Made by a program: the position numbers and the translations under genes. A stretch of 42,998 nt of DNA from an uncultured Mycoplasmatota bacterium. Its GTDB lineage: Bacteria > Bacillota_I > Bacilli_A > RF39 > UBA660. The notes under the pieces were generated by a model. It did no database searches. It was not told where the DNA came from and saw only the letters and a program-made list of their open reading frames with translations. Positions 23,670-29,822 of the stretch are shown here, one piece after another. The stretch is taken from assembly GCA_946488855.1 (NCBI GenBank), contig CAMLWC010000009.1, positions 1 to 42,998 of the forward strand. Reading direction: 5' to 3'. Position 1 is the stretch's first letter; the number at the start of each line of letters is the position of its first letter.

Positions 23670-24512
23670 ATGAAACAAGATAAAACATATTTAATTAATA
23701 AAATATTTAATAACGAAAATATTAGAACAGTTTGGGATAAAGATTCCGAAAAATATTATATCAGTGTGGTTGATATTGTAGGTATTTTATCAGAAAGTAA
23801 AGATGGAAGAAAATACTGGAATAAATTAAAACAAAGATTAAAAGAAGAAGGAAATGAAACGGTGACAAATTGTCACCAGTTGAAATTGAAAGCCCAAGAT
23901 GGTAAATATCGTTTGACTGATGTCGTAGACATTGAAGGAATGTTTAGAATAATCGAATCAATACCAAGTAAAAATGCCGAACCAGTGAAACTTTGGTTAG
24001 CTAAATTAGGTAGTGAAAGAATTGATGAAGTATTTGATCCTTCTATTGGTATTCAAAGATTAATAGATTTGTATCGTTCTAAAGGTTATGATGAATTATG
24101 GATAGCTAAGCGAATAAAAGGAATTCAACAAAGAAAAAGTTTAACTGATGTATGGAAAGACAATGGAATTACTGAAAACTATGAATATGGTATTTTAACG
24201 AATGAAATATATAAAAGTTGGTCAGGTATGACTGCTAAAGAGTACAAGGGATTAAGAAAAGAATCTTTAAGGGATAATATGGATAGTATCGAAGTAACAT
24301 TAGCTGATTTAGGTGAAGAGGCAACTAAAAGATTAGCTAATAAACAAAAACCTCAAGGATTAAAAAACAATATTAAAGTAGCTAAAATAGGTGGTAATGT
24401 GGCTAAAGTTGCTCGCGATGAATTAGAAAAACAATTAGGAGAAACTGTTATATCTAAAGATAATTATTTAGGTTATGAATATAAAAATGAAAAATTAATC
24501 GAAAATAAGTAA
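23670..24512 (+). CDS. BRO-N / antirepressor-like protein
   Basis: 280 residues. The N-terminal half has the BRO-N style strand-helix pattern (IRTVWDKDSEKYYISVVDIVGILSE, then KYWNKLKQRLKEEG). It continues with the block VTNCHQLKLKA, DVVDIEGMFRIIESIPS and AEPVKLWLAKLGSERIDE that is common to a widespread prophage-antirepressor/BRO-like group. The C-terminal part has SWSGMTAKEYKGLRKESLRDNM and a basic tail. Such proteins are DNA-binding and often come with prophages, but no integrase or phage gene is near. The promoter contains an inverted repeat, suggesting self-control. The start follows AGAAGGAGGAAT. Confidence 0.75.
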   Translation: MKQDKTYLINKIFNNENIRTVWDKDSEKYYISVVDIVGILSESKDGRKYWNKLKQRLKEEGNETVTNCHQLKLKAQDGKYRLTDVVDIEGMFRIIESIPSKNAEPVKLWLAKLGSERIDEVFDPSIGIQRLIDLYRSKGYDELWIAKRIKGIQQRKSLTDVWKDNGITENYEYGILTNEIYKSWSGMTAKEYKGLRKESLRDNMDSIEVTLADLGEEATKRLANKQKPQGLKNNIKVAKIGGNVAKVARDELEKQLGETVISKDNYLGYEYKNEKLIENK

Positions 24513-28516: not shown

Positions 28517-28545
28517 TTTACATATAATTAATTTTATGATATAAT
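28517..28545 (+). promoter_or_regulatory. Promoter of the small hydrophobic peptide
   Basis: TTTACA at 28517-28522, 17 bases, TATAAT at 28540-28545, preceded by TGA (extended -10). It predicts an RNA start at 28552 or 28553, exactly where the 5' fold-back arm begins. Confidence 0.75.
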
Positions 28546-28578
28546 TTATATAGGTAATGCAAGATTGTTAGGTATCTA

Positions 28579-28593
28579 CCTCCTGAAAGGAGG
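28579..28593 (+). promoter_or_regulatory. Hairpin that sequesters the Shine-Dalgarno
   Basis: CCTCCT (28579-28584), loop GAA, AGGAGG (28588-28593). The full ribosome site of the 30-residue peptide is paired with its exact complement, nine bases before the ATG, which should keep translation low unless the hairpin opens. Confidence 0.8.
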
Positions 28594-28602
28594 ATTGATA
28601 AA

Positions 28603-28695
28603 ATGACTAAAAAAGATGTATTTATAATAAATATATTTTTATTAATTATAATCATTTTATTAGTAACTCTATTAATCATAATAGAAATAAAATAG
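28603..28695 (+). CDS. 30-residue hydrophobic peptide, candidate type I toxin
   Basis: The peptide begins MTKKD, then consists of one hydrophobic stretch of about 23 residues rich in Ile and Leu (VFIINIFLL, then IIIILLVTLL, then III), and ends EIK. The layout of a positive N-terminus, one span and a polar tail fits small membrane toxins of type I toxin-antitoxin loci and holin-like peptides. It matches no family I can name. An ideal AGGAGG lies nine bases before the ATG but is locked in a hairpin. Promoter, 5'-3' complementarity and a convergent antisense promoter surround it. A tiny housekeeping membrane protein is possible but would not explain these RNA structures. Confidence 0.65.
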   Translation: MTKKDVFIINIFLLIIIILLVTLLIIIEIK

Positions 28696-28803
28696 GATAC
28701 CTAATCATCAACATAGATTAGGTATCTACACACAATTAATAGGTAGATACTTAACTAGCTAAATCAAGCATTACCTTTTTATTATATGATGTAAATCACA
28801 TCT
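28690..28803 (-). ncRNA. Predicted antisense RNA (candidate antitoxin)
   Basis: Transcription from the minus-strand promoter at 28810-28838 would run leftward over the 3' end of the small-peptide RNA. It would stop at the hairpin 28697-28726, which on this strand is followed by a T-rich tail (CTATTTTATTT). The RNA would be fully complementary to the 3' UTR. Through the direct repeat it would also pair 12 bases of the 5' UTR next to the Shine-Dalgarno. The ends are estimates. Confidence 0.5.
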
Positions 28804-28809
28804 ATATAC

Positions 28810-28838
28810 ATAATAACATATTTTTAAGTTAATTTCAA
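28810..28838 (-). promoter_or_regulatory. Convergent promoter for the predicted antisense RNA
   Basis: On the minus strand TTGAAA (plus 28833-28838), 17 bases, TATTAT (plus 28810-28815). A second TATAAT on the same strand at plus 28781-28786 is followed five bases later by the same GGTAATGC that starts the sense RNA, but its -35 is poor. Confidence 0.55.
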
Positions 28839-29027: not shown

Positions 29028-29822
29028 ATGTTAGATAGAATATTTGATTTAGCTAAAATACAAAATAAGATTACTAATTTTAATGATAACTTAAAAAAAC
29101 AATATTATAATTATTTAATAAATGAATTTGGAACTTTATTTACATTTCATTCTAATCGTATTGAAGGAACAAATATGACTTTAACCCTTAACGATACAAG
29201 AGAAATATTAAATAATACTTATAATTTAGATATTAAAGATAAACATAAGAAAAGAGAGATTAATGAAACCATAAATCATCAAAATGCATTTAAATATATT
29301 TTTGATATATTAAATAAAGATATAGATATTATTGAAGTGATTAAAAATATTCATTTTATTGTTGGTAAAGATATCATAATAAATGCAGGTGAATATAAAA
29401 TAAAAGAAAATTATTTAATAAATAGTAATGGTAAAGAAATAAATTTTACTAAACCTAGTTTAGTTTCTAAAAGAATGGAAGAATTAAAACAAAAATATGA
29501 AAATGATTGGCAAAATTTAACTGTTTTTGAAAGGGCTATTAAATTACATATGGCTATAGTTAATATTCACCCATTTAGTGATGGTAATGGTCGAGTAGCA
29601 CGTCTTATTATGAATTATGAGTTGATAAAAAATAATTATCCGCCAGTTAATATCAATGAAAGTCAAAAATTATCTTATTATGCTGTTATTGAAGAGATAA
29701 ATATTGATACTGATTATCAGAATAATCCATTAGAAATTGGTGATATTAAATTATTTAATGAGACAATTCAACAATTATCAATTATGACATTTAAAAATAT
29801 GCAAAAGTATTTTAAGAATTAA
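29028..29822 (+). CDS. Fic domain protein, class II (self-inhibited)
   Basis: 264 residues. The Fic core HPFSDGNGRVAR (181-192) has the catalytic His181 and the phosphate-binding loop intact. The N-terminal inhibitory motif S42-N43-R44-I45-E46-G47 fits (S/T)xxxE(G/N), with Glu46 expected to block ATP binding until released. Fic proteins usually attach AMP to target hydroxyl groups. The target is unknown, and no separate antitoxin gene is next to it, as expected when the inhibitor is built in. An extended -10 TGA-TATACT at 28999-29004 and GGAGGA before the ATG are seen. It lies between two 25-nt direct repeats. Confidence 0.9.
   Translation: MLDRIFDLAKIQNKITNFNDNLKKQYYNYLINEFGTLFTFHSNRIEGTNMTLTLNDTREILNNTYNLDIKDKHKKREINETINHQNAFKYIFDILNKDIDIIEVIKNIHFIVGKDIIINAGEYKIKENYLINSNGKEINFTKPSLVSKRMEELKQKYENDWQNLTVFERAIKLHMAIVNIHPFSDGNGRVARLIMNYELIKNNYPPVNINESQKLSYYAVIEEINIDTDYQNNPLEIGDIKLFNETIQQLSIMTFKNMQKYFKN

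Follow-up and report, generated by a model that had tools for sequence, protein, structure and literature searches.

A predicted type I toxin-antitoxin family combining convergent RNAs with an end-to-end mRNA clamp in uncultured Bacilli

The Bacillus subtilis systems bsrG/SR4 and bsrE/SR5 consist of convergent RNAs that pair at their 3′ ends, with a small hydrophobic toxin; the Shine-Dalgarno sequence lies under a short helix, and the antisense RNA contacts helix P1 of the toxin mRNA (PMC6562991). The par locus of pAD1 (Fst/Ldr) has convergent promoters, a ~230-nt toxin mRNA with a Shine-Dalgarno stem-loop, a helix protecting the 5′ end, and complementarity through direct repeats (PMC7472228). 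In aapA/IsoA of Helicobacter pylori and in hok/sok, the toxin mRNA is closed by a 5′-3′ long-distance interaction, local Shine-Dalgarno hairpins form during transcription, and the loci form a multi-copy family (PMC6733600). Type I systems have been reported from Proteobacteria, Firmicutes, Tenericutes, and newly from Cyanobacteria (PMC12390103).

Here we describe a locus at 28553-28785 of a 42,998-nucleotide stretch of DNA (the window) from an uncultured bacterium whose assembled genome comprises 1.23 Mb in 76 contigs and is 71% complete. The coding character of its peptide, a covarying clamp, both promoters, both terminators, and the antisense overlap make it, in our judgement, quite likely a resident chromosomal type I toxin-antitoxin locus. 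Two of the features by which such loci are recognized, a hydrophobic coding peptide and an overlapping antisense gene with its own promoter and terminator, were found, the latter by sequence. Like bsrG/SR4 and bsrE/SR5, the locus is predicted, here from sequence alone, to give convergent 3′-overlapping RNAs, a small hydrophobic peptide, and a covered Shine-Dalgarno sequence. The toxins nevertheless differ, with no sequence match found and the two sets distinguished by description, and, unlike the family here, bsrG/SR4 and bsrE/SR5 reside on prophages or prophage-like regions. With par of pAD1 it shares convergent promoters, a similar mRNA size, the Shine-Dalgarno stem-loop, the 5′-end helix, and direct repeats; in contrast to par, it has two separate predicted terminators rather than one shared bidirectional terminator, an antisense RNA of ~118 nt rather than ~40 nt, inverted outer arms, and peptides without the tryptophan/PxxxG signature. 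A predicted 5′-3′ long-distance pairing of the toxin mRNA and a multi-copy occurrence recall aapA/IsoA and hok/sok. Differences from these are that the antisense RNA here lies opposite the last third of the mRNA and that thermodynamic folding does not predict release of the Shine-Dalgarno sequence on 3′ trimming. The locus is thus a predicted type I system of a variant kind, joining the convergent layout to an end-to-end clamp. The literature found contains no description of this family (T1TAdb lay outside the search).

A sequence-only reading of the window had pointed to a mirror-image arrangement at this locus, and its letters and coordinates are exact. Plus-strand positions 28781-28786 read ATTATA, giving TATAAT on the minus strand, followed after a 5-base gap (28776-28780) by GGTAATGC on that strand (28775-28768), and 28567-28581 (GTTAGGTATCTACCT) differs by one mismatch from the complement of 28741-28755 (GTTAAGTATCTACCT). 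A repeat search recovered the inverted arms of 28553-28785 as two inverted pairs (I4 and I5). Folded as RNA, this segment reached –73.2 kcal/mol, where shuffled sequences averaged –32.6 (z = –11.15; 0 of 200 shuffles as low), and its outer helix is formed by the two arms. We agree with the same reading that such symmetry goes beyond a plain gene, and we find the arms to be a conserved pair. The symmetry is real and is best explained by RNA structure rather than transposition: both strands look alike because the terminator hairpin approximates its own reverse complement and the 5′ end is complementary to it. None of the curated Rfam models matched the locus.

The predicted sense promoter (28517-28545, plus strand) is TTTACA-17-TATAAT preceded by TG, with 11 of 12 matches, and its –10 box is kept in paralogues and orthologues. 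Transcription is predicted to start at GGTAATGC and to yield an RNA of ~225 nt. Positions 28553-28581 (plus strand) at the 5′ end of this RNA are the 5′ arm of the clamp, and their pairing partner is its 3′ end (28741-28775, plus strand). Next to the 5′ arm, the hairpin CCTCCT-GAA-AGGAGG (28579-28593, plus strand) encloses the Shine-Dalgarno sequence AGGAGG (28588-28593); the base of this hairpin covaries, relatives carrying CTACC/GGAGGT or CTGCC/GGAGGC. The repeat search also found a direct repeat of 5′UTR positions 28568-28579 (TTAGGTATCTAC) at 28718-28729 (plus strand). The 3′ arm combines a predicted local terminator hairpin with the clamp partner of the 5′ arm, and the putative sense U-tract follows at 28776-28783 (plus strand).

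On the minus strand, the predicted antisense promoter is TTGAAA-17-TATTAT with an extended –10 (28810-28838), and the RNA would start near 28803 with a 5′ hairpin, GATGT-AAATC-ACATC plus flanks (28784-28807, minus strand), replaced in relatives by GCAAG..CTTG, TATGTAAG..CTTACATA, or ATGAGAGATATCTCAT. Its candidate intrinsic terminator (28684-28726, minus strand; stem 28696-28706/28716-28726) takes its U-tract from the strand opposite the last toxin codons. By sequence, the antisense RNA ends just past the toxin stop codon and overlaps the 3′ third of the mRNA, with a predicted length of ~118 nt in the window and a family median of 121 nt. Among 120 relatives, the post-stop stem-loop was below –8 kcal/mol in 111, and the A-richness preceding it averaged 7.8/11. 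This stem-loop also forms in the sense RNA; a role as a par-like bidirectional terminator was rejected, the sense side having no U-tract. Through its complement of the direct repeat, the antisense RNA can base-pair with the 5′UTR of the toxin mRNA, and complementarity was higher for own pairs than for swapped pairs.

We collected 167 unique antisense sites by their hairpin and U-tract; the promoter played no part in anchoring them. A minus-strand promoter (TTG-type –35, 17-bp spacer, extended –10 TGnTATnAT) lies directly upstream of the short hairpin in this set, in one register in 145 of the 167 sites. The sequence-only reading had suggested that both RNAs may start with the same sequence, each behind its own TATAAT. 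Promoters on both strands are indeed present by sequence, but the common start does not stand, the conserved antisense promoter lying ~28 bp further upstream; the minus-strand TATAAT (28781-28786) was therefore rejected as the antisense –10 box; it is the region of the sense U-tract read on the opposite strand. It falls inside the predicted antisense transcript, and most of the family have TAAAAT in its place. Outside the window's genus (e.g., L135, L218, and L222), a hairpin such as CGACTTGTCAAAAAGTCG, with TTTTT behind it, contains the antisense –35 and has the look of a terminator that overlaps the promoter. In the copies on contigs C50 and C27 (L002/L003), TTGACAAA and TTTGTCAA flank the antisense promoter after the U-tract on either side; together they form an inverted repeat, possibly an operator.

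The sense RNA encodes a 30-residue hydrophobic peptide, MTKKDVFIINIFLLIIIILLVTLLIIIEIK (28603-28695, plus strand), a predicted type I toxin. The family comprises ~75-80 different hydrophobic peptides, mostly of 24-31 residues with basic N-termini. In close pairs of the 30-residue class, changes at codon positions 1, 2, and 3 numbered 236, 86, and 320, and the other three length classes showed the same trend (210/81/345, 44/17/102, and 23/3/31). Because substitutions fall mostly at position 3 and least at position 2, the peptide is very probably translated. No peptide matched Pfam or NCBIfam or, through these, a known toxin family, and inspection showed the Fst/Ldr signature (conserved Trp, P/D/S/TxxxG motif, charged C-terminus) to be absent from the family. 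A translated peptide of this kind could instead be a small membrane protein under antisense control with a benign regulatory or stress role. Same-genus peptides that persist despite a lost or decayed 3′ arm (the C31 copy, L004; L241) fit such a role, this state being risky for a strong toxin. Yet a single greasy helix with basic ends, a convergent antisense RNA, a covered Shine-Dalgarno sequence, and an end clamp make up the usual design of type I toxins, while toxin-antitoxin loci typically show high copy number, exchange of peptides, and loss; we consider the benign role improbable and favor a toxin. Two loci in which the peptide is retained and the 3′ arm is lost or decayed (L011, positions 72-232, and L241) are natural tests of the need for the clamp.

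A DNA search of the window's genome detected at least eight copies. Besides the one in the window, C50 carries three in tandem, C27 two, and C4 and C31 one each; the C31 copy has lost its 3′ half. A protein-profile search added one more distant copy on C66. Every copy in this genome encodes a hydrophobic peptide of 29-30 residues, and same-genus genomes hold up to ten matches each. In 9 of 18 same-genus genomes, the window copy, with paired arms, stands immediately downstream of a sigma-70-family gene, in which Pfam recognizes regions 2 and 4 and which looks by eye like a sporulation sigma factor. L244 and L246 have neither the locus nor a Fic gene, and there the sigma gene leads directly into an ABC transporter gene. 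L238 carries at the orthologous site a diverged locus with a different peptide (MLKKEKYIFVINLFLTLIIILLIILLFLIIKKIPN) and matching arms (GGTAATAC...GTATTACC), its sense U-tract missing, possibly the result of a toxin swap or of deep divergence. L241 retains the peptide with a decayed 3′ arm. Most extra copies stand in tandem, spaced by ~350 bp, at conserved sites, for example downstream of mutL, where the C4 copy and its 1-3 relatives occur in much the same genome group. From these comparisons of placement, the locus is resident, multiplying in tandem and sometimes being lost.

Some observations concern the surroundings of the copies. Tandem arrays with ~350-bp spacing occur in L009 (contig C50) and L091; the C50 array mixes peptide classes, and in the arrays the antisense promoter of one copy and the sense promoter of the following copy stand back to back. 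Five of the nine genomes having the window copy carry an adjoining Fic-domain gene (window 29028-29822); the other four lack it, and there an ABC transporter gene follows the locus directly. At 23670-24512, the window encodes a protein with a BRO-N domain. Proteins with this domain are often phage-related.

The sequence-only reading had also raised the possibility that the small gene is carried by a mini mobile element whose ends are terminal inverted repeats. For such a MITE-like element, the inverted arms at both ends and the eight or more copies would speak. It had set dispersed copies, as the mark of such an element, against a single syntenic copy, as the mark of a resident locus; the search gave further copies, but mostly tandem, which counts against mobility, and the synteny of the window copy in half of the same-genus genomes favors residence. 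That reading had named loss of the paired arms in relatives keeping the peptide as its refutation; the arms stay together in 9 of 9 same-genus genomes retaining the window peptide. Against mobility, the arms vary among copies yet remain complementary within each, unlike terminal repeats that a single transposase would have to recognize, and the conserved promoters are situated beyond the arms. As that reading had noted, no target-site duplication is visible; none appears at the junction with the sigma-factor gene, and locus-free genomes show no matching clean excision. A strict 3′-pattern search of viral contigs gave no match, plasmids gave none, and phages gave only a spurious match of 36 bp in AT-rich coding sequence. 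Covarying arms, synteny, tandem extras, the absent duplication, and the lack of viral-contig and plasmid matches together leave transposition very improbable, and the resident toxin-antitoxin locus is preferred. The 3′-pattern matched in 67 of 193 sampled members of the family of the host and in 1 of 341 sampled genomes of the class's other families, so matches hardly occur beyond one family of small-genome uncultured Bacilli. Among the matches listed, named records are mostly metagenome-assembled genomes of uncultured Bacilli, Tenericutes, and Erysipelotrichaceae, including Candidatus Ventrenecus; the host group is presumably the GTDB order RF39.

To characterize the clamp, we used 120 unique loci in which the start was set only by the –10 box and GG and the end only by the U-tract, with no pairing criterion. 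The first 32 nt bound the last 46 nt with a mean of –32.4 kcal/mol for own partners and –20.3 for swapped partners (standard deviation of the mean, 0.69; n = 120). Own-partner pairing being the stronger, the two arms covary within copies. In an earlier locus set, own partners gave –32.7 kcal/mol and partners drawn from different arm clusters –13.9; a first covariation count was limited to loci with at least 6 of 8 pairs, a filter from which the 120-locus analysis is free. End-to-end pairing was below –20 kcal/mol in 116 of 120 loci, and the clamp was more stable than both local hairpins summed in 118. An inverted repeat acting in DNA, as an operator or cruciform bound by protein, is hardly tenable: a palindromic DNA design also yields complementary arms, but here the pairs change freely among loci, G-U included, without loss of pairing (at terminal pairs 3-8, several standard pair types occur), where a DNA site would keep its letters, and the arms sit exactly at the predicted start and end of the transcript.

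Returning to the RNA, the 3′ arm by itself forms a local hairpin with a mean of –7.8 kcal/mol vs. –3.5 for shuffles, beating shuffles in 114 of 120 loci and ending 0-1 nt before the U-tract in 111; that of the window copy is weak (–3.3 kcal/mol). Since this local hairpin abuts the U-tract, the 3′ arm probably doubles as sense terminator and clamp half, and the idea that the clamp is the only possible sense terminator was dropped. In thermodynamic folding only, the mean unpaired probability of the Shine-Dalgarno sequence was 0.18 at full length vs. 0.22 without the 3′ arm, and in the window copy it went from 0.39 to 0.01 on trimming. As removal of the 3′ arm leaves the Shine-Dalgarno sequence covered in silico, activation by 3′ trimming of the hok/aapA kind is not supported by these models. 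This outcome, the weak 3′ hairpin of the window copy, the missing sense U-tract of L238, and the lack of a match to a known toxin family count against the toxin-antitoxin reading.

For toxicity, antisense expression, mRNA lifetime, folding order, and the mode of mRNA activation, we infer the following scheme. The sense strand would give the ~225-nt mRNA for the 30-residue membrane peptide, and the convergent promoter a ~118-nt antisense RNA running across the 3′ third of the mRNA and stopping just past the toxin stop codon. During transcription, the small hairpin would mask the Shine-Dalgarno sequence, and the 3′ arm hairpin would terminate the transcript at the U-tract. The 3′ arm would then re-pair with the 5′ end into the far more stable clamp, closing the mRNA and protecting its ends. 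First contact of the antisense RNA with the mRNA is probably through the stem-loops behind the stop codon, which are complementary throughout, and the duplex would then extend over the 3′ region; the direct-repeat copy in the antisense RNA can mask the 5′UTR as well. Silencing of the mRNA or its degradation by RNase III would be the outcome. Should the antisense supply fail, the long-lived mRNA would eventually be translated, and the peptide would damage the membrane.

More tentatively, and with some doubt, a 3′ arm that serves first as terminator and then, the 5′ end being its complement, as clamp, so that each correctly terminated toxin mRNA would be born closed, together with mixed-toxin arrays whose arms coevolve within each copy, may mark a distinct class of type I loci with its own specificity code among paralogues. 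The loci apparently represent a large, undescribed family of type I toxin-antitoxin-like elements in uncultured gut bacteria, adding ~75-80 peptides, with up to ten copies per genome, in small-genome gut Bacilli. The family would provide a natural covariation data set for an RNA element used as both terminator and clamp, and for how paralogous toxin-antitoxin pairs stay separate.
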